Shown here piece by piece: positions 3,806 to 14,519 of a DNA stretch of 43,467 bases. The notes below the pieces were generated by a model. The model saw only the letters and a list, made by a program, of their open reading frames with translations. It did no database searches and was not told the DNA's origin. The position numbers and the translations under genes are program-made. Within the stretch, counting starts at the first letter, position 1. Every line of letters begins with the position of its first letter. This DNA is from Candidatus Saccharimonadota bacterium (GTDB lineage: Bacteria; Patescibacteriota; Saccharimonadia; Saccharimonadales; UBA4665), in contig JAICLK010000004.1 in assembly GCA_025927415.1 (NCBI GenBank), positions 1 through 43,467 on the forward strand. Direction: 5' to 3'.

Positions 3806-4834
3806 CTAATCGGTCACGAAATAGTCGTATGCGAAGACGGAATGCGTTGGCGCTGCGTTGACAGTACACAGGCTCATACCGGTGGTTGTGCGCGTAACGT
3901 AATATTGAGTCTGGCCGGCACCAGAGTTGACTGGGCTCACAATGACATGGGGCGTTTTGGTAAAGGGCTTATTAAATGTGATGCTGATAAAACAGCCTGG
4001 TTGTGTGTTGGCGCCAGTGTTGACGTTGATGGTGCCGTTAGTGTCGCTGCCATCAATCGATGCGCTGCCGCCTTGGCCAGCCGCGCCCGTGTTGCCGGCG
4101 GCACGTCCGGGTGATGGGCCGGTGAACGCCAGGTGGTTCGGAATCTGCAGTACGGCGTTGCCGCTCATAATTAAGCTTGTAACGGTCAGTTGTGTGGCGG
4201 TTATCGGGCCGCTGAATGTGCTGACACCGCCAACGTTCAGGTTGTGTTGTATGGTTACATCGCCTTGCAGTGTGCTGTTTTGGGCTACTTGCAGGCTTTG
4301 AATTTGCGTGCTCGCCAGGCTTACGGTACCGGTAGCGGTGAAGTTCTGCGCTTGCAGCTGGCCCCCCAGCTTGATGCCTCCGGCCACGGCCAGATCTTTC
4401 TGCACCAATACCTCGCCCGAGAAAATTGCATTGCCCTGAATCGTAACCGTTTGGCCGCTGGCGCCCACGCTCGCGTTAGAATTGGCGAGTTGCTTTAGCT
4501 CATCGGTGGTGAGGTTTTGGCTCACGGCGTTCGGTGCTGGCGGCGCTTTTTTGCTGTTGAGATAGTTAATGAGAGCGAACGCACCCCCAACTACTAGCAG
4601 CAGCAAAAACCCCAAAAAATAGATGTCCACTTTGCGGATGAGTGCCTTTATGCCGCCTTTTTTTGCCGGTTGGGCAGGTGGCGGTTTGGCACCGCTGGTG
4701 GCATCTTCAACGTTGGGGTCAGAGCCGGGTGTTGCCGCACTGTTATCTTGGCCATTGCTGGGCACGGCAGTGCCATTGGGATCTTCCGGCTTAGCCTCCA
4801 GGCTGGTGCTGGCTTGGTCTTTTTTCTCTTCCAT
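3806..4834 (-). CDS. Single-pass membrane protein with beta-solenoid/tail-fibre-like ectodomain
   Basis: N-terminal low-complexity cytoplasmic part, TM VDIYFLGFLLLLVVGGAFALINYL, repeats such as GDVTIQHNLNVGGVSTFSGPITATQLTV, C-terminal FNKPFTKTPHVIVSPVNSGAGQTQYYVTRTTTGMSLCT. Confidence 0.7.
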   Translation of the reverse strand: MEEKKDQASTSLEAKPEDPNGTAVPSNGQDNSAATPGSDPNVEDATSGAKPPPAQPAKKGGIKALIRKVDIYFLGFLLLLVVGGAFALINYLNSKKAPPAPNAVSQNLTTDELKQLANSNASVGASGQTVTIQGNAIFSGEVLVQKDLAVAGGIKLGGQLQAQNFTATGTVSLASTQIQSLQVAQNSTLQGDVTIQHNLNVGGVSTFSGPITATQLTVTSLIMSGNAVLQIPNHLAFTGPSPGRAAGNTGAAGQGGSASIDGSDTNGTINVNTGANTQPGCFISITFNKPFTKTPHVIVSPVNSGAGQTQYYVTRTTTGMSLCTVNAAPTHSVFAYDYFVTD

Positions 4835-4875: not shown

Positions 4876-5661
4876 GTGGATAAACCGTGGAGCGGTAATA
4901 AAACAGTGGTAAATTTTCTTTTCAGAGAGAAGCGGTTGCGGATTGGCTTTGTGTTGCTCGCGTTCGTCGCGCCGCTTGGTTTTAGTGTGCCTGTGGCAGC
5001 CGATCCCAACCAGTCGTCCTCCACGCACTATTCGGTTAACGAAGTGCAGTTTGGTGCTGGCTCGTCGGACAACACCTGTTCCGGTAATTACTGTGCGCAA
5101 GCGTCGGTGGGCGATACAGGTGTAGGTACCGCTTGCTCCGCAAACTACTGTGCGCAAGGCGGTTTTATGATCTCTACCTCACCGCTGCTCGAAGTAAGTG
5201 TTGCAAACGAAACCCAGAACATGGGCACCATTACACCTACGACAACTGGCAGTGCCACTATGCTGGTCAAGGTGCGCAGTTACCTTAGTAGCGGTTATAC
5301 GTTGGAGATAATCGGTCTCACGCCCAGTCAAGGTACGCACCATCTTACGGCGCTCACCAGCCCGTCTACCTCGCAGCCAGGTACGGAGCAGTTTGGTGTT
5401 AATTTGGTGGCCAACACGATGCCGAGCGTTGGCGCCGCGCCGCTCCAGGTTCCCTCGGGTAGTTTTAGCTTTGGCTATGTTAAGGATTCATACAAAAACG
5501 CCGACCAATTTATGTATCAAAGCGGCGACGACGTGGCCGAAAGTGACAGCAGCACGGGCGAAACAGATTACACTGTGTCGATGGTTGCCAATGTTTCCAA
5601 TGTTACGCCCGGCGGTTACTACGTCGGTGCATTTCAGGCCGAGGTCGTGCCAGTATTTTAG
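4876..5661 (+). CDS. Secreted surface protein, WxL-like C-terminal domain (GTG start)
   Basis: Signal peptide-like N-terminus; duplicated CSGNYCAQ/CSANYCAQ; C-terminal GTEQFGVNLVAN...DYTVSMVANVSNVTPGGYYVGAFQAEVVPVF resembles neighbouring paralogs. Confidence 0.65.
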   Translation: MDKPWSGNKTVVNFLFREKRLRIGFVLLAFVAPLGFSVPVAADPNQSSSTHYSVNEVQFGAGSSDNTCSGNYCAQASVGDTGVGTACSANYCAQGGFMISTSPLLEVSVANETQNMGTITPTTTGSATMLVKVRSYLSSGYTLEIIGLTPSQGTHHLTALTSPSTSQPGTEQFGVNLVANTMPSVGAAPLQVPSGSFSFGYVKDSYKNADQFMYQSGDDVAESDSSTGETDYTVSMVANVSNVTPGGYYVGAFQAEVVPVF

Positions 5662-5782
5662 CTAGCGGCAGCTGTGGATAAAAGGCTTGTGCTTTATGTG
5701 GGCGCATGCTATAGTTCAGCCATCTGGTAGATGAAAATTACCTGAAAAATAAAAATAAATAGTAATTAAATAAGGAGAAAAC

Positions 5783-7582
5783 ATGCAAAAGTTTAAGGAC
5801 CTTGCCAGAAGGAGCGTCTATCTTTCTGGCGTCGTGGGTTTGCTCGCGGGGCTTGGGGTGTCTGCGGCCTTTCCGTTGATGGCCTCAGCAGATGCGCTCA
5901 ACCCGCTTACCGAGCGTACGCTGCTCCTCAGCAGTTCTGCCCCGGGTTATGTTGATGTGGATGGTTCCGGCAACTCCACCTACGCGCCTCCGGGCAGTGG
6001 TGCGAATGGTAAGAAAACGGGCGAGACGTTTACTTTCAAAATTAGCACGGCGGAAAACCATACTAATGCGGCAACGCAAATTCAGGCCTTTACGCTCCAG
6101 TATTGTACTGTTGCAGCTGGTGAATGCGAAGGCCCGGGCGACAACAGTCCGGTAAGCGGCGCTGACACTGCTACAACCAGTGACCTCAATGTACAGGTTG
6201 GTACTGGCGGTCACGCACCTGCAGAAATCACGGCCATTCCAGACACCAGCAGCTCGCCTCCTGGCGGTGTAGCCGCAGACGACAGCCAAGGTTCATTTGG
6301 CGTTGAAACCTGGAACGGCAGCGCATGGGTTATTGACCCAGACTGGGCTATGACTGTGAGCAACCTGGAAGACAGCACCGGTACACACACCGGCAAGAAC
6401 AACTTCATTACCTTGAAGAACACCACGCACTATCTTGGTGACGATGGTTCGGGCACGACAGATGTAGCGGCAGGTACGGAAGTTAAAGTACAGTTCTTTC
6501 CTACCGACAACAACTACATTACTAACCCTGGGTCCAACGCGTATTTCGTAAAGATTAACGACTACGACGCGACAACTCACCTGAACTTCCGAGACAACTA
6601 CCCAGACGACAACATATGTGGTTCTGGCACCGATCCATGTCCACAAAATGTGGTTGACGGTGGTGTTACGGTGGCGAACGTCATGAACAACTCCATCCTC
6701 ATTCGCTCCAAAGTTTTGGAAACATTGGACTTCTCGGTTGGTACACATGACCCAGACACCGATGCAGTTGGTCACAGCCCGTGCGATGCCGTTAATGACG
6801 GCAGTACTGGCACCGGTGGCGCCATCTACCTTGGCGACCCGACGGCAGAAAACTCACTCAGTACGCATCAAGCATTTGACAACTTTTCGTACTGGCGTCT
6901 GTCAAGTAACTCTAGTAACGGTGCCACGGTATACTACTCTGGCAACACGCTAGCGGATACAGAAAACGACCACATTGGCCAAGTTTACGACATTGCCTCA
7001 GGCGAAAGTCACACGCCTGGTGACAACTCTGGCGAGTACAGCCATACTGGTTCAGAGCAATTCGGTCTCGGCCTTGACGTTACCTACGATGGAAGCCTGT
7101 ACGGCTCGGGCGGTTACTTGGATGACTACACGCCTGCCAACAGCAAAGATGGTGCCGGAGCCGACAACACAAACTTGACCGATGTCGATAGCGGCTTTAC
7201 AAGCGATGTTAGCTCAAACAACCCTTCGGGCGACTACTTTAACAGCTGGCATGCACCAGAACTGTACCCGCTGGTACCTATGGGTGACGCAGCAGGAACG
7301 GTTGGCAACCCAGCTAACGGTATCGACGGCGGTACGGCTAGTGACACCGACGGTACCATGAGCTATGGTTTGGCACACGGTTCGATCGGCGCAAACGGTT
7401 TGGGCGCACGCTTCGCCTTCGACAAGAACGCGAACACCATTCCAGTGCCAATCGCTAGCGAAAGCAGCACGGTGGTTAACTGTTCGACTGGTCTGATGCG
7501 ATACGTCGGTAACATCGCAGCAACCACCCCTGCAGGTATTTACACCACTGCCATCAACTACGTCGCAGCTCCTGAATATTAG
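5783..7582 (+). CDS. Large secreted surface protein (WxL-like family)
   Basis: Signal peptide; N-terminal LTERTLLLSSSAPG module; C-terminal YVGNIAATTPAGIYTTAINYVAAPEY; AAGGAG upstream. Confidence 0.7.
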   Translation: MQKFKDLARRSVYLSGVVGLLAGLGVSAAFPLMASADALNPLTERTLLLSSSAPGYVDVDGSGNSTYAPPGSGANGKKTGETFTFKISTAENHTNAATQIQAFTLQYCTVAAGECEGPGDNSPVSGADTATTSDLNVQVGTGGHAPAEITAIPDTSSSPPGGVAADDSQGSFGVETWNGSAWVIDPDWAMTVSNLEDSTGTHTGKNNFITLKNTTHYLGDDGSGTTDVAAGTEVKVQFFPTDNNYITNPGSNAYFVKINDYDATTHLNFRDNYPDDNICGSGTDPCPQNVVDGGVTVANVMNNSILIRSKVLETLDFSVGTHDPDTDAVGHSPCDAVNDGSTGTGGAIYLGDPTAENSLSTHQAFDNFSYWRLSSNSSNGATVYYSGNTLADTENDHIGQVYDIASGESHTPGDNSGEYSHTGSEQFGLGLDVTYDGSLYGSGGYLDDYTPANSKDGAGADNTNLTDVDSGFTSDVSSNNPSGDYFNSWHAPELYPLVPMGDAAGTVGNPANGIDGGTASDTDGTMSYGLAHGSIGANGLGARFAFDKNANTIPVPIASESSTVVNCSTGLMRYVGNIAATTPAGIYTTAINYVAAPEY

Positions 7583-7603
7583 GCAAACTGCAAAGTAGAA
7601 CCT

Positions 7604-7631
7604 AAAACTGGCTCCCCCCGGAGCCAGTTTT
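7604..7631. terminator. Bidirectional Rho-independent terminator
   Basis: AAAACTGGCTCC-CCCC-GGAGCCAGTTTT directly after the 599-aa ORF. Confidence 0.85.
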
Positions 7632-7669
7632 AGTTTCTAGGAACCGCTCCGGCATAATATAATAAGGTT

Positions 7670-8740
7670 ATGCATAGGTTGAAGCGGCTGCATTTTCATT
7701 TGTCGCCGCATTATGGTTATATTCTGGAGGCGATAACGCCCCTGTTGTGCGCGCTGGTATTTATGGTGCCGCAGGTGTATGCGGTTACGCGTTTTAATAA
7801 CCGCTCCCTGCTTGTTACACCTCCAGTGCCTGGTGCAACTGCTACATATACCGTATCTCTGAGTTACAACACGCTTACAACTGTTGGTTCCATGGATCTG
7901 CTGTTCTGTACGGATCCGATTCCAAACGACCCATGCATTGCACCGCAGGGGCTGAATGTCTCGCACGCGCAACTTACCAATCAGGCTGGCGTAACAGGTT
8001 ATAGCATAAAGTCAGAAACCTCAAACGACATGGTGCTTACGCGTAACCCCGGCGTGGTGAGTGACACGCCATCTACCTATGTATTCTCCAATATTGTTAA
8101 CCCAACTAAGACCGTGGATGCGTACTTTATTCGCTTGAGTGACTATGCTAGTACCGACGCGTCCGGTAGTCTCATTGACCTTGGCACGGTTGGCTCTGAA
8201 GTAAACAACAGTCTTATTGTGCAGACGCAGGTGCCGCCGATGCTGGTCTTCTGCGTAGCGCAGGAGGTGTCCCAAGACTGTAATAGTGACGATGGAATAT
8301 ACTTTTCCGACCTCGGCAACCTGGATAGTACACATACCCTGACAGCTACATCACAAATGTCCGCCGGCACGAACGCTTCTCAGGGTTATGTGATAACCGT
8401 AAATGGTCCGAGTATGGAGGCGGGCACGAACGTTATCACGCCGCTGGCAAAGCCTACCGCCAGCATAGCCGGCGTCAGCCAGTTTGGCATTAACCTTACC
8501 ACCAACACTGCGCCGAGCCTGGGCGCCGATCCTGATGGTAGCTTCACGAATGCCGTGGTTGCGGCGGACTACGATCATCCAAACCGATTCCTCTACCAAG
8601 ATGGCGCTGTGGTGGCTGGGGCGCCAAACGTCGCCTTGATTCGCCGTTTCACCGTGAGCTACATCGTCAACGCGGCGAGTAATCTGAGAGCCGGTGTCTA
8701 TACCACAACACTCACATACATTTGCAGTGGCCGATTTTGA
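7670..8740 (+). CDS. Secreted surface protein (WxL-like family)
   Basis: NRSLLVTPPVPG...FCTDPIPNDPC, SQFGINLTTNTAPSLGADP, RAGVYTTTLTYICSGRF; same architecture as the 5783 and 10988 ORFs. Confidence 0.68.
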   Translation: MHRLKRLHFHLSPHYGYILEAITPLLCALVFMVPQVYAVTRFNNRSLLVTPPVPGATATYTVSLSYNTLTTVGSMDLLFCTDPIPNDPCIAPQGLNVSHAQLTNQAGVTGYSIKSETSNDMVLTRNPGVVSDTPSTYVFSNIVNPTKTVDAYFIRLSDYASTDASGSLIDLGTVGSEVNNSLIVQTQVPPMLVFCVAQEVSQDCNSDDGIYFSDLGNLDSTHTLTATSQMSAGTNASQGYVITVNGPSMEAGTNVITPLAKPTASIAGVSQFGINLTTNTAPSLGADPDGSFTNAVVAADYDHPNRFLYQDGAVVAGAPNVALIRRFTVSYIVNAASNLRAGVYTTTLTYICSGRF

Positions 8741-8794
8741 TGCTACAATAACGCTTATAATTATTCCAAAAACAGAAGTAGGAGGGGTCTTATC

Positions 8795-9874
8795 GTGAAG
8801 CGATTAGCGAGTTTTCTGAGTGTTGCACTCGTGGCAGTATTTGCCATGGTGAGTGTGGTGCCGGCGTCGGCGGCGCCATCATCGACCAGATCGTCGTCGG
8901 GGCTGAGTATTATTCCGCGCATTAACTTGCAGATAAATCCAGGCCAGACGGTCACAAGTAAGTTGGTCATCGGTAACCTCAGCAACACGACAGACCTCAA
9001 CCTTACGCTGCGGCCCATCGACTTTACGTTCAGCAACGACAGCGGCGTACCAAAATTGTTCTTGGCGCAAAACGCGCCACAAACCACGTGGTCAATCAAA
9101 CCGTTTATCAATATTCCAGGCGGAATTGTAGTGCCAAAAGGTCAAACCAAAACGGTGCCGTTTACCCTTTCTGTGCCAAAGGGCCAGGGTGCCGGCAGCT
9201 ACTACAGCGCTATTGAATACGAATCGGGCAACAGTAATGGCGGTAGCGTGAGTTTGAGCGCTACAGGTGTATCGTTGGTATTCGTTGAAGTGCCTGGTAT
9301 TGTGCACGAAGACGTTTCTTTGCAAAAAATGGGGGCATATCAAACTGCTAACCAAGGTGTAACTGGCGGCTATGCGTTTATCAATACCATTATGCCCCGT
9401 AACGTTGCTTTCTCGCTGAAGAACAACGGCAATGTAGCCGAGAGCCCATCTGGCACGCTCACTATCCACGACATGTGGGGCAACAAAGTGGCAAATATTA
9501 CTAATGTCAATCCTAGCCAAGACCTGGCACTTATCGGTCAGACCCGTTTGTTCCTGAACTGCATTAAATCCCAACCGACGAGTGTGACACTCGGCGGCTC
9601 GACTACCCACAGCCAAACGTGTACCAATCCGCACTTGTGGCCTGGCATGTATACCATGACTCTCGACAGTTTCTATGGCCAAAATGGCAACCAAACCAAA
9701 GAGCTCACCGCAACTGCAACATTTTGGTACATGCCGTGGTGGGCAATCGTAGTCTTGCTGCTTATCGTGCTACTCATCGTTGGTGCCATCTTGCGCATCC
9801 GCTACAAGATCCGCAAGCACCGCAGTACGCCACACGTACAGCGCGCCCGCACCTTCAGGCTTGGGCGCAAATAG
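8795..9874 (+). CDS. DUF916/WxL-interacting-protein-like membrane-anchored protein (GTG start)
   Basis: Signal peptide; IIPRINLQINPGQTVTSKLVIGNLSN..., VPKGQTKTVPFTLSVPKGQGAGSYYSAIEY; C-terminal TM WWAIVVLLLIVLLIVGAIL with basic tail; AGGAGGGG SD. Confidence 0.72.
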   Translation: MKRLASFLSVALVAVFAMVSVVPASAAPSSTRSSSGLSIIPRINLQINPGQTVTSKLVIGNLSNTTDLNLTLRPIDFTFSNDSGVPKLFLAQNAPQTTWSIKPFINIPGGIVVPKGQTKTVPFTLSVPKGQGAGSYYSAIEYESGNSNGGSVSLSATGVSLVFVEVPGIVHEDVSLQKMGAYQTANQGVTGGYAFINTIMPRNVAFSLKNNGNVAESPSGTLTIHDMWGNKVANITNVNPSQDLALIGQTRLFLNCIKSQPTSVTLGGSTTHSQTCTNPHLWPGMYTMTLDSFYGQNGNQTKELTATATFWYMPWWAIVVLLLIVLLIVGAILRIRYKIRKHRSTPHVQRARTFRLGRK

Positions 9875-9919
9875 GGTAAGCGTCGTTGCGTCACATTTCG
9901 TGCTAAAATTACCATAAGC

Positions 9920-10846
9920 ATGAAGTTAGGTAGTATTCGAAAACACTGGGAGCTGGTGGCTATGGCCGTCAGCTCTTGTGCTGTTGTGCTGCTCGTGCCG
10001 GCGTCTGTTTTTGCCATTACGCAAATTCCCATTCCAGCACCGCAACCCGGCTCGTACGGTTTGGCCGCTACCAAGCCACAACCTGCCCCAACTACCACGG
10101 CCACCATTTCCACGCCGGGGAATGGCGCATCGTTCTCTACTACCCCTATTACTGTTGCCGGTTTATGTACCAAAGGACTGCTGGTGCAAGTGTACGATAA
10201 CGGGGCGCTCGTGGGCGCATACACTTGTTCTAACGGCAGCTTTAAACTGCAAGTTAGTCTGTTTCCGGGCAAGAATGACCTTACGGCTATCCAGTACGAT
10301 GACCTTGGCCAGGCGAGCCCAATTAGTAACAAGGTGACCGTTACGTATAATAACGCCCACTTTTCGTCGTTTGGTTCTGCACTTACGCTCACCAGTGACT
10401 ACGGCCGCCGTGCCGCCGACCCTGGCTCGACGCTCACCTGGCCGCTACAGTTGAGCGGCGGCACCGGCCCGTACGCATTTAGCATAGATTGGGGCGACGG
10501 TGGTAAGGCGCAGCTCATGAGTCAGTCCGCTGCAGGACTCGTGAATATTAACCACGTGTACAACCAAAGCGGCGTGTACCCAGTAACCATTACCGCTACA
10601 GACCACAACGGCGAAAGTGCCTTTCTGCAAGTTGTGGCGGTGGCAAACGGTCAGCCCAACCCATCGCTTGCGGCCAGCAACAAGTCCGGCAACGGTACAC
10701 CAACAACAACTACCAAAGTTATGTGGCTCCCAACGGTCGTAAGCGCCGTTTTACTTTTTCCGGCTTACTGGCTCGGCCGCCGCAGTGAGCTAGTCACACT
10801 CCATAATAAGTTGCAAAAAGATCTGCAAAAATATCGCGAGGAGTAG
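9920..10846 (+). CDS. Surface protein with Ig-like and PKD domains and C-terminal TM
   Basis: PKD-like FSIDWGDGGKAQ...INHVYNQSGVYPVTITATDHNG; C-terminal TM VVSAVLLFPAYWLG; signal peptide-like N-terminus. Confidence 0.7.
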   Translation: MKLGSIRKHWELVAMAVSSCAVVLLVPASVFAITQIPIPAPQPGSYGLAATKPQPAPTTTATISTPGNGASFSTTPITVAGLCTKGLLVQVYDNGALVGAYTCSNGSFKLQVSLFPGKNDLTAIQYDDLGQASPISNKVTVTYNNAHFSSFGSALTLTSDYGRRAADPGSTLTWPLQLSGGTGPYAFSIDWGDGGKAQLMSQSAAGLVNINHVYNQSGVYPVTITATDHNGESAFLQVVAVANGQPNPSLAASNKSGNGTPTTTTKVMWLPTVVSAVLLFPAYWLGRRSELVTLHNKLQKDLQKYREE

Positions 10847-10987
10847 TTCCACGCACCAATCTGTGGAAAAGTAGCAAGAACTTTACTACAAAAATGCTTG
10901 CGTTTGACCGCATAAGCATGATAAATTTGAAACATTGCGAGACAAAAATAATAAAAAATTCTTAAAAACTAAAATAGGAAAGAGAGT

Positions 10988-12304
10988 ATGAAGATAAGGC
11001 GATCTTTTGATAGCCGTGCTAGCTACATAGTAGCTTCGCTCGGTTTACTGTTTGTGATGCTAGCTTCCGCAGCATTTCCTGCGTTTGCTTCAGCGGCTGG
11101 GTCGGTAGATGACCGCAGCATCGCCCTGAGCAGCAGTGCAAGTGGTGCAAGTGGCGTGTCGTATAATTTAACCTTCACCCCAGAAAATGACATCACATCT
11201 AGCGGTAGCGTAGTTGTGGAATTTTGTGATAATAACTCACTCGTTGGTCTAGCTTGTGATGACAACAACACAAGTGATGTGAACGTAAACGGCGCGTCGC
11301 TCGGTGCAGTTAAGTACAATAGCGTAACTGCCACAGACGCTGGCAGCATAAGTACCACGACGGACTCCACTGCAACGGGTACTAGCCCGGTGAAGAACGT
11401 TATCGTGTGGAAAGCGGGTGCGGACGTTTCGGGCGCTGGCCAACCAATTAGCATCACTTTCGACAGCCTCACCAACCCAACGGTTAGCGGAGAAAGTAGC
11501 ACCGTGTATGCTCGTATTACTACGTATGGCAGCGATGTTACCACTGCATGGACGGGCGGTACGCCGACTGCTAGCGGTACAAGTCCTGGTGCTTACCTCG
11601 ATGAAGGCGGTGTAGCCCTCGGCATCGTGTCTGCCCTTGGCGTAACGGCTTACGTTGAAGAATCTATGACCTTCTGTGTCACTGGCGCAGTTAGTGATTC
11701 ATCTGGCGGACCAACCCCTGCGGCTGGCACCGATGACGAAGATTGTGGCAACACGACTGATCCGAGCATGACGTTAGGTGAGGCGATCTCAGGTGGTGGT
11801 AGCGCCCTTGACAGTCAACATGTGAGTACGCATACCGACTACGCAGAGCTTTCTACTAACGCGGCACATGGTGCAATCGTGAACCTAAAGAGTGTTACAA
11901 ACGATAACTGTGGTGGCTTGGAGCGAATCGGTGCCAGCACATGTGACATTGCACCGCAGACGGCGACTTCTGGCAGTGCTCCTCTCATTGCGAATGGTAG
12001 CGCCCTATTCGGTGTCGAGGTAGGATCACCGGCTACAGTTGGTGGCGCAGGCAACACGACTTCATCTGGTACGCTCGCACCATCCGGCAGCTATAGTGGC
12101 AGTAACTACTTCATGGACTACAGCTCAGGCAGCCCAACGACCGCAGGTATCACTAGCCCTTACGGCAGTGCGTTGTTCGGTACGGGCGGCGATACGGTGA
12201 ACAACAAGTATGTTCCACTTACCTTTGGTGCAAGCGTTAGCAACACCACACCGGCAGGAACGTACACAGCAACCCTTAACATGATTGCAAGCGGCACATT
12301 CTAG
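10988..12304 (+). CDS. Secreted surface protein (WxL-like family)
   Basis: Signal peptide; VDDRSIALSSSASG...VEFCDNNSLVGLAC; C-terminal SVSNTTPAGTYTATLNMIASGTF; paralogous to the 5783 and 7670 ORFs. Confidence 0.7.
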   Translation: MKIRRSFDSRASYIVASLGLLFVMLASAAFPAFASAAGSVDDRSIALSSSASGASGVSYNLTFTPENDITSSGSVVVEFCDNNSLVGLACDDNNTSDVNVNGASLGAVKYNSVTATDAGSISTTTDSTATGTSPVKNVIVWKAGADVSGAGQPISITFDSLTNPTVSGESSTVYARITTYGSDVTTAWTGGTPTASGTSPGAYLDEGGVALGIVSALGVTAYVEESMTFCVTGAVSDSSGGPTPAAGTDDEDCGNTTDPSMTLGEAISGGGSALDSQHVSTHTDYAELSTNAAHGAIVNLKSVTNDNCGGLERIGASTCDIAPQTATSGSAPLIANGSALFGVEVGSPATVGGAGNTTSSGTLAPSGSYSGSNYFMDYSSGSPTTAGITSPYGSALFGTGGDTVNNKYVPLTFGASVSNTTPAGTYTATLNMIASGTF

Positions 12305-12323
12305 CTCGCAAATCATTCGTGCT

Positions 12324-12351
12324 GAAAACTCCCGAAACATCGGGAGTTTTC
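12324..12351 (+). terminator. Rho-independent terminator
   Basis: GAAAACTCCCG-AAACAT-CGGGAGTTTTC. Confidence 0.85.
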
Positions 12352-12445
12352 TTTATCTGAAAGGGTAGATTATTTTGGTAAAATCTCCTACGTTCTGTTA
12401 CTATTAAATACAAGTTTACATAAGGGTAATTGGGGACACATTACA

Positions 12446-13450
12446 GTGAAAATAGCCAAGTATCGTGCGCTTCTGGTGGTTGCGACAGTTTTGACGTTTG
12501 GAGCTTTTGGCAGTTATGCATTGGCGGCAACCAATTCGTCAGCTGCTAAGACAACTAAGCCATCGACAGGCGATGCTAACAGTATTAGAATCTCTCCTCT
12601 TCGGTCTGACTTGACCATTGAACCCGGCAAAACGGGCACTGTAAAGGTTAATGTTACAAATCTTTCCAAGCAAACCGCGGTGTATCAGACTATTGAGAAT
12701 GACTTTGTGGCGGGCGACGAGAAAGGCACGCCGGCGATTGTGCTGAGCCCCAACAGCTATGCGCCAACACATAGCCTAAAACGTTTTATGGTGCCCCTGG
12801 GCAACATCACTGTTCCTGCCGGCACCACACAGGCGATTACGCTAACCATTAAAGTGCCCATTACTGCGCAAGCTGGCGGTTATTTTGGCGCCTTGCGTTT
12901 TGCGCCGGCTAGCAATGGCAACGGTAACTTAAGTCTTACCTCTAGCGCGGCATCGCTTGTCCTCCTTACGGTGCCTGGCCCAGCAGTGCAAAAACTGACA
13001 TTGACTAATTTCGATGTCCAGCAGGGAAGCTTTACAGCAACCAACTTTCGCACGCCCAAGAACCTGAGCGTGTTGGTCCGGTTCGAAAACGCGGGCAACC
13101 TGCAAGAAACACCGTTCGGCCAGATTAACGTGACCAAAAACAAAAATAAGTTGCTGTATACCTATAATTTCAATCAAACCGATCCCAAAGACGAGATTCT
13201 GCCCGACAGTGCTCGTCGTTGGAGTGTGCCGCTGAAGGGTGTCGGTGTATTTGGTAAATATACGGTTACGGGCACATTTACATACGGCAGCGGCCAGAGT
13301 ATTCAGGTGAGCAAAACCTTCTGGATTGTGCCCACCAAGTACATCATTGCCGGCATTGTGGCACTGATAGTTGTGATCTTGTTTGTCTTCTTCATCTGGC
13401 GGTCGATTCAGAGGACTCGCTATCGCAACCACTATCGTGGTCGTCGCTAA
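12446..13450 (+). CDS. DUF916/WxL-interacting-protein-like membrane-anchored protein (second copy)
   Basis: SIRISPLRSDLTIEPGKTGTVKVNVTNLSKQTAVYQ...VPAGTTQAITLTIKVPITAQAGGYFGALRF; C-terminal TM IIAGIVALIVVILFVFFIW plus basic tail. Confidence 0.72.
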   Translation: MKIAKYRALLVVATVLTFGAFGSYALAATNSSAAKTTKPSTGDANSIRISPLRSDLTIEPGKTGTVKVNVTNLSKQTAVYQTIENDFVAGDEKGTPAIVLSPNSYAPTHSLKRFMVPLGNITVPAGTTQAITLTIKVPITAQAGGYFGALRFAPASNGNGNLSLTSSAASLVLLTVPGPAVQKLTLTNFDVQQGSFTATNFRTPKNLSVLVRFENAGNLQETPFGQINVTKNKNKLLYTYNFNQTDPKDEILPDSARRWSVPLKGVGVFGKYTVTGTFTYGSGQSIQVSKTFWIVPTKYIIAGIVALIVVILFVFFIWRSIQRTRYRNHYRGRR

Positions 13451-13467
13451 AACAGAAGGAATAAGCC

Positions 13468-13761
13468 ATGAACACGTTCGCGTTCTACATGCATCACACA
13501 AATCACTGGGGTGGACACAGGTCGTCGCACCATTGGCAGTTGAGTGGGCTGACATTGTTTCTCACCTTTGTAGTTTCTTTGGCTATAGCCGCAATCTTGG
13601 CATTTGAAATTTGGATGTTTTTCGACTGCGTGCTGGACCGCAAAATGCCAAGCAAAAACAAAGTTTGGTGGATTGTCGGCATGTTGCTACTCCACCCAAT
13701 TGTAGCCATCTTCTACTACTTTATTGTGCACCGTCCCCGAAAACAGCAACCTCGTAAATAG
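13468..13761 (+). CDS. Small two-TM membrane protein, PLDc_N-like
   Basis: FLTFVVSLAIAAILAFEIWMFFDCVLDRKMPSKNKVWWIVGMLLLHPIVAIFYYFIVHRPR resembles PLD nuclease N-terminal-like small proteins; SD AGAAGGA. Confidence 0.6.
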   Translation: MNTFAFYMHHTNHWGGHRSSHHWQLSGLTLFLTFVVSLAIAAILAFEIWMFFDCVLDRKMPSKNKVWWIVGMLLLHPIVAIFYYFIVHRPRKQQPRK

Positions 13762-13811: not shown

Positions 13812-14519
13812 CTACAGCTCGGCGAGCGTGGGTTCAGCTTCTGACTCGCTGAGTACTTCTGCGAGCTGTGCTCTGGCTCGTAACAATCGTGGTCCCGTAG
13901 ACTTAATGTTGCGCGATGCAGCATATTCTGGGTAGGACATGGCTTCCACGCCCACTGCCAGCAAAACGTCTCGGTATATTTCTGGCAGGGTGCTGATGGC
14001 TTGGCAAACGCGTTGGAATTCGATTCGGTTTAGTGCACGCTCTTCGACTGGCGGTTCGCTATCTGGCGTTTCTGCCACGTCAGATTCCGCGGTCTCGAAA
14101 GAAGTCATCGGCACAATTCGCTGACGCTCGTTCTCGACCTTAACCATGTTCAGCCCCGTGCGCATTACGATGGTGTGCATCCAGGCGCCACGCTTTTCCT
14201 CGTCACCCTCGAACATGTTCCATTTCAGGTAGGTTCTGGTGAGACCTTCTTGCAGGATGTCATCGGCCTGTTGGTGTCCAAATTTTCTGGAGAGTGAATA
14301 GAGAAGTTGCTTTTTTGCTTGTTCGACACACCGGTTATAGTCGTCAATCTGGTCGGGAGTTGCCCGGAAGGGATATTCGTCCGCCTCAATGGTGCTTAAA
14401 TCTGCAGGCACTGCGACTTCTTCATTCCACCCTTCGTCGGCTGGCGTAGTCTCCAGTAATTGCTCTAACATCGCAACATCTGCGTCTTCGGGTCTGGTTA
14501 TAGTCAAAACTTCGGGCAT
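13812..14519 (-). CDS. ECF-like RNA polymerase sigma factor (sigma-70 family)
   Basis: Region-2-like QQADDILQEGLTRTYLKWNMFEGDEEKRGAWMHTIVMRTGLNMVK and region-4-like ISTLPEIYRDVLLAVGVEAMSYPEYAASRNIKSTGPRLLRARAQL. Confidence 0.65.
   Translation of the reverse strand: MPEVLTITRPEDADVAMLEQLLETTPADEGWNEEVAVPADLSTIEADEYPFRATPDQIDDYNRCVEQAKKQLLYSLSRKFGHQQADDILQEGLTRTYLKWNMFEGDEEKRGAWMHTIVMRTGLNMVKVENERQRIVPMTSFETAESDVAETPDSEPPVEERALNRIEFQRVCQAISTLPEIYRDVLLAVGVEAMSYPEYAASRNIKSTGPRLLRARAQLAEVLSESEAEPTLAEL

Follow-up and report, generated by a model that had tools for sequence, protein, structure and literature searches.

A Pam pilus operon with a second pilin-anchor module and WxLIP-related membrane anchors in a Saccharibacterium

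The locus described here bears on the way in which ultrasmall epibionts assemble fibres for contact with their hosts. Here we analyse a 43,467-nucleotide stretch of DNA, referred to below as the window, from a Candidatus Saccharimonadota bacterium (assembly GCA_025927415.1, contig JAICLK010000004.1), an ultrasmall organism from a group whose members live on other bacteria. The genome totals 665 kb and is 76% complete; the window, its contig C9, holds a Pam pilus operon of the CPR (Candidate Phyla Radiation) type. Pam pili are surface fibres; the locus belongs to this named system and is unusual for its second cognate module. The link described below between the Pam system, the WxL-interacting proteins (WxLIP) and the folds of pilus chaperones may surprise specialists and, if true, a pilus pathway of the chaperone type in cells that lack an outer membrane would represent a new assembly logic.

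Gene content and identity of the locus

The locus is a run of eight genes, all on the forward strand, separated by gaps of 17–141 bp and flanked by the end of the atp operon and by mnmA. A sequence-only reading, made earlier from the letters of this DNA, had named the same eight open reading frames (ORFs), and all are real and lie on one strand where it placed them. Proteins are referred to below by the start position of their genes or by the letters given here:

4876..5661, forward strand: PamT, core gene T, which carries a Pam pilin domain at its C-terminus (NF058579 279.7 bits, cut-off 240; NF058581 145.7 bits, cut-off 55; C-terminus GxY...F)
5783..7582, forward strand: core gene P, a variable Pam pilin of 599 aa (NF058581 36.4 bits, under the cut-off of 55; C-terminus GIY...Y)
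7670..8740, forward strand: core gene Q, a conserved Pam pilin of two domains (NF058581 153.5 bits; AlphaFold2 predicted local distance difference test, pLDDT, 90; C-terminus GVY...F)
8795..9874, forward strand: WxLIP-like membrane-anchored protein A1, the core anchor, with signal peptide, PGBD, second domain, transmembrane helix and basic tail (PF06030 2.9e-5; anchor clade I)
9920..10846, forward strand: PamR, gene R, an RbmA-like pilus-system protein with immunoglobulin-like (Ig-like) and PKD domains and a C-terminal transmembrane segment (NF058578 378 bits, cut-off 300; PKD_4 2.1e-7)
10988..12304, forward strand: second P-type pilin P2, extra module (NF058581 20.4 bits, below cut-off; C-terminus GTY...F)
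12446..13450, forward strand: WxLIP-like membrane-anchored protein A2, extra module (PF06030 4e-6, 27.3, exactly the cut-off; AlphaFold2 pLDDT 90.4; main anchor clade)
13468..13761, forward strand: small protein with two transmembrane helices, PLDc_N-like (PF13396 at cut-off), in this genome's locus only
3806..4834, reverse strand: bactofilin-like protein with an N-terminal transmembrane helix (PF04519 0.0025), divergent neighbour of the core and possible component
7601..7633, no strand assigned: strong stem-loop of 14 bp in the gap between the P and Q pilin genes, not conserved in relatives
12324..12351, forward strand: terminator-like hairpin 3' of P2

The products of 4876, 5783, 7670, 8795, 9920, 10988 and 12446 carry N-terminal hydrophobic signal segments, and no LPXTG motif is found in any of the locus's named proteins. 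PamT, PamR and the Pam pilin C domain of 7670 and 4876 exceed the curated NCBIfam cut-offs. The NF058581 matches of 5783 and 10988 fall below it, yet both proteins are placed among the pilins in the tree, and they are more distant Pam pilins. T, P and Q are secreted beta-sandwich pilins, and the AlphaFold2 model of 7670 consists of two beta domains with a short flexible linker between them. That these proteins form fibres is suggested by their NCBIfam naming; a search of the literature library found no paper describing Pam. The earlier identification of 9920 as a PKD protein holds, with the C-terminal transmembrane segment as an addition.

The sequence-only reading had also reported that no sortase is present, which is correct within the window but not genome-wide, as two are encoded on other contigs (G000:C22:5220-5645 and C51:4085-4504). 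ATPases of the type IV pilus and type II secretion type are likewise encoded elsewhere in the genome and indicate that type IV pili are a separate system.

Membrane anchors and their pilin partners

Both 8795 and 12446 end in a transmembrane helix with a basic tail and no LPXTG, as had been described, and the suggestion that they resemble DUF916/WxL-interacting proteins is borne out: by Pfam, profile-profile and fold comparison they are genuine relatives of the DUF916/WxLIP family. The PF06030 (WxLIP_PGBD, formerly DUF916) match of 8795 scores 24.5 bits, just below the cut-off, and 27.4 when the protein is scanned with its neighbours, and 57 of the 59 anchors from this and related loci match PF06030 (best 3e-10). 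For profile comparison, real Firmicutes WxL and WxLIP profiles were built from annotated plasmid genes, for which a WxL-like probe served only as bait to locate the genes. Compared with the real WxLIPs, the anchors reach 99.3% in hhalign (E 4.9e-20; reversed control 7%), and anchor domain 1 alone reaches 98.3% (E 1.7e-14). The best match in a PDB profile search with the anchors was EfmWxLIP1. The NQIDKxxxYFDLK segment of WxLIP is missing from the anchors in the profile alignment, and no Pam-named NCBIfam model in the library scanned matched them.

An AlphaFold2 model of 12446, run on 59 sequences, shows two seven-strand Ig-like domains and a transmembrane helix, with a loop at about residues 155–167, before the last strand of domain 1, that is less certain than its surroundings. 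In a Foldseek comparison with 350,542 PDB chains, the best three matches of this model were E. faecium WxLIP, the top one being WxLIP bound to a long WxL protein (9i25_C, E 1.6e-11), and the fourth was the pilus chaperone CfaA (6k73_B, E 3e-10). The chaperones CsuC (E 7e-8), FimC, CupB2, DraB and Caf1M follow at lower ranks, interspersed with other Ig-like folds, and the resemblance of 12446 to PapD-like two-domain chaperones is one of fold similarity only. The sequence-only reading had named the lack of a structural match to WxL or DUF916 folds as grounds for refutation; for the 12446 anchor such a match exists. Foldseek with the two-domain pilin 7670 returned generic low-TM adhesin matches only. 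In free CfaA and PapD the pilin-binding F1-G1 loop is disordered (PMC4133393), and in WxLIP an AlphaFold2-predicted hairpin becomes ordered on completing the WxL sandwich (PMC10599100). The anchors may use an equivalent element.

The proposal that the secreted and anchored classes are partners is supported by co-occurrence, adjacency and co-evolution. In a phylum-wide sample of 380 Patescibacteria genomes, 103 carry the Pam pilin C domain and 114 carry PF06030, and the two co-occur with an odds ratio of 10.4 (p 2e-20). Among the matches listed, PF06030 lies within 1.5 kb downstream of a pilin on the same strand in 31 genomes and on the opposite strand in 0. Across 35 complete cassettes, anchor distances correlate with those of P (0.79), Q (0.76) and T (0.69), and in a partial Mantel test controlling for mnmA and the bactofilin-like gene the values are 0.68, 0.62 and 0.58, respectively (p 0.0005), compared with 0.20 for PamR. 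The anchors thus co-vary with all three pilins above the genome background and much less with PamR, which disfavours simple linkage because PamR adjoins the anchor.

The pilins share a C-terminal signature. Of 172 Saccharibacterial T, P and Q pilins, 168 have Gly at position -15, Tyr at -13 and a final residue (-1) that is Phe or Tyr; the exceptions are one gapped sequence, one whose end is truncated or out of frame, and two that deviate at one or two positions. Almost all of 45 distant pilins, taken from other classes of Patescibacteria, have this ending as well. A C-terminal strand of fixed length closed by an aromatic residue would suit a role in recognition or assembly; the pilins that PapD recognises likewise have a conserved C-terminal Gly and a penultimate aromatic.

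Conservation of the cassette and the extra module

Cassettes of relatives were gathered with a profile from a closer subset of sequences, and PamT is present in 26 of 40 relatives. The core order is fixed: the bactofilin-like gene on the opposite strand, T, one to five variable P genes, a single Q, the anchor A, PamR and mnmA. Synteny across Saccharibacteria, which the sequence-only reading had named as a check, is clear, given that most of 59 Saccharibacteria loci have T-P-Q-A-R in this order with the atp operon on one side and mnmA on the other, a recurrence that puts the cassette far beyond chance. The distances of the bactofilin-like gene, conserved beside the core, track those of PamR (0.75) above those of mnmA (0.61).

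In the window, PamR is followed by the second P-type pilin, the second anchor, the small membrane protein and a gene for an extracytoplasmic function (ECF) sigma factor, an arrangement seen in no other fetched locus. The anchor tree places 12446 in the main clade (28 rows, support 100/99) and 8795 in a separate seven-row clade (100/100). In the pilin tree, 5783 groups with P pilins of loci that carry an 8795-type anchor (L088, L021, L083, L086 and L078), and 10988 with those of loci that carry a 12446-type anchor (L041, L045, L046, L053, L063 and L065). Because pilins and anchors split alike, the extra module holds a pilin and an anchor that match each other and differ in type from the core pair, and it is not a local repeat. 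These trees rule out a local tandem duplication of a secreted-plus-anchor module, and the two module repeats proposed earlier give way to a T-P-Q-A-R core and a second pair that belongs to another lineage of both proteins.

The small protein 13468 has no homologue in the loci of relatives, and the ECF-type sigma factor gene (13812-14519, reverse strand), between the extra module and mnmA, was not seen in them either. Strong hairpins lie 3' of both P-type pilin genes here (7601-7633 and 12324-12351) and not in most relatives. Hairpins occur in only 3 of 47 P-Q gaps, which rules them out as a conserved stoichiometry device 3' of pilin genes, and are commoner in A-R gaps (18 of 54). Among the related loci, a second PamR-like gene (~350-400 aa) is found ~4-5 kb downstream of the Pam core in nine (L042, L043, L045, L046, L051, L054, L057, L062 and L065), giant secreted-type ORFs (1,100-2,200 aa) lie immediately 3' of PamR in six (L061, L090 and L092-L095), and L088 departs from the usual order by an inversion of PamT and the bactofilin-like gene. 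Giant ORFs of 1,600-4,500 aa that end in a Pam pilin C domain occur in the phylum-wide sample (G201:C1, G276:C1, G283:C4, G326:C14, G393:C2 and G298:C37), some of them directly upstream of WxLIP-like genes and resembling large WxL adhesins.

Pilus assembly and related systems

The account that we favour, and hold to be probable, is that the anchor is a membrane-tethered chaperone or platform that delivers pilins to the fibre without an usher, with the extra module as a second cognate pair. The proposal is usher-free because the lineage is monoderm; in such a lineage neither an outer membrane nor an usher is expected (no usher search was made). Pilins would be exported by Sec, and the anchor, positioned on the outer face of the cytoplasmic membrane, would capture the newly secreted pilin through its first Ig-like domain, the PGBD. 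The probable contact would be strand complementation, in which the F1-G1 hairpin of the anchor pairs with the C-terminal strand of the pilin (G-15, Y-13, F/Y-1). The anchor would then keep the subunit folded and transfer it to the growing fibre or hold the fibre base, with neither usher nor sortase involved. The genes at 10988-13761 would add another cognate pilin and anchor, unlike the first pair in type, and probably yield an alternative or mixed fibre. A role in host contact, as suggested in the sequence-only reading, would fit such a pilus, and the surface layer suggested alongside it is without support.

Several points weigh against this account. The Foldseek TM-scores of 12446 are modest (0.41-0.50), and anchor domain 2, although Ig-like in the model, gives 0.7% in hhalign against the HBD (DUF3324) of WxLIP and no Pfam match. 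The predicted structure of pilin Q (7670) has no obvious donor-strand N-terminal extension, and 34 of 102 Pam-pilin genomes are without a detected PF06030 protein. Physical binding between pilin and anchor is a step that we infer, and the co-variation of T, P, Q and A could reflect exchange of the T-P-Q-A block as a unit. Published work on WxLIP proposes anchoring, not chaperoning (PMC10599100).

A rather unlikely alternative is a WxL-like platform as in Firmicutes, in which the Pam ‘pilins’ would be diverged wall-coating WxL domains that the anchors merely clamp, building no fibre. Firmicutes loci share the gene order, with secreted beta proteins followed by WxLIP, and the giant Pam-C-domain proteins recall large WxL proteins. 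With deep profiles, hhalign of Pam pilins against WxL gave 27.8% (P 6.4e-4), under the usual bar, at a score of 26.7 compared with 14.9 ± 2.3 for block-shuffled profiles (maximum 23.4), and the alignment pairs an FG motif, GWxLxV with GYxIxV and YxTTLTWxL with YxxTLTYxx, with Tyr at both WxL-equivalent positions. Caution is needed because WxL against the anchor profile also reached 23.5, and the homology link between Pam pilins and WxL is suggestive at most. With small profiles, the match of Pam pilins to real WxL domains is at background level (<1%), PF13731 (WxL) has no match in the four secreted proteins or anywhere in this genome, and NCBIfam labels the proteins pilus subunits. These results, the missing PF13731 match and the background-level small-profile comparison, rule out the secreted proteins as members of the WxL family, which the sequence-only reading had taken them to resemble; they are Pam pilins instead. 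Genuine WxL domains occur separately, in 10 of the 380 Patescibacteria genomes, all 10 of which also have PF06030. Their loci (G302:C9, G053:C45/C58, G099:C1, G063:C1, G192:C1 and others; L114-L126) mostly have PF06030 proteins nearby and lie apart from Pam loci.

It is improbable that the anchors are co-transcribed surface proteins unlinked to the pilins, with fibres built by sortases or by the type IV pilus system. The genome does encode two sortases and the ATPases mentioned above, but the pilins lack LPXTG and have cleavable-type signal peptides and C-terminal beta domains, which are not type IV pilin features, and the specific anchor-pilin co-evolution and phylum-wide adjacency also argue against this explanation. 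A surface-layer lattice instead of fibres would accommodate secreted beta-rich proteins with membrane anchors but is very improbable given the matches to named pilus families and the copy number of P, which varies from 1 to 5 inside one conserved operon.

For the tethered-chaperone account, the evidence singles out the anchor as a specific partner and the fixed C-terminal strand as a specific contact, and the operon, by holding two pilin-anchor pairs that are not identical, offers a built-in test of specificity. Subunit chaperoning is also suggested as a function of the Firmicutes WxLIP proteins, for which anchoring has been proposed. A more tentative generalization, which we regard as possible, is that the WxLIP family are tethered pilus chaperones of single-membrane bacteria, so that Pam and WxL clusters would be two branches of one usher-free pathway and Pam C and WxL homologous subunits (Tyr for Trp).

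Three known systems invite comparison. The Firmicutes WxL/WxLIP (DUF916-DUF3324) clusters (PMC10599100; PDB 9i25, 9i1y) share with this locus a homologous PGBD, a signal peptide, two Ig-like domains and a C-terminal transmembrane helix in the anchor, and secreted partner genes upstream of the anchor gene. The locus differs from them in having Pam pilins as partners and no WxL domain, NQIDKxxxYFDLK segment or DUF3324 sequence match. Chaperone-usher pili (PapD, FimC, CfaA and CsuC) are similar in that the anchor fold ranks beside their chaperones and has a loop of lower certainty ahead of the final strand of its domain 1, and in that the pilins carry a conserved C-terminal Gly/aromatic strand, whereas the chaperone proposed here is membrane-tethered. 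The system to which the locus belongs is the CPR-type Pam pilus (NF058578, NF058579 and NF058581), with which the locus shares PamT, PamR and two Pam pilin domains above cut-off in an operon arranged as in relatives, and from which it differs by the extra module of P-type pilin, anchor and small protein, with an anchor from another clade.

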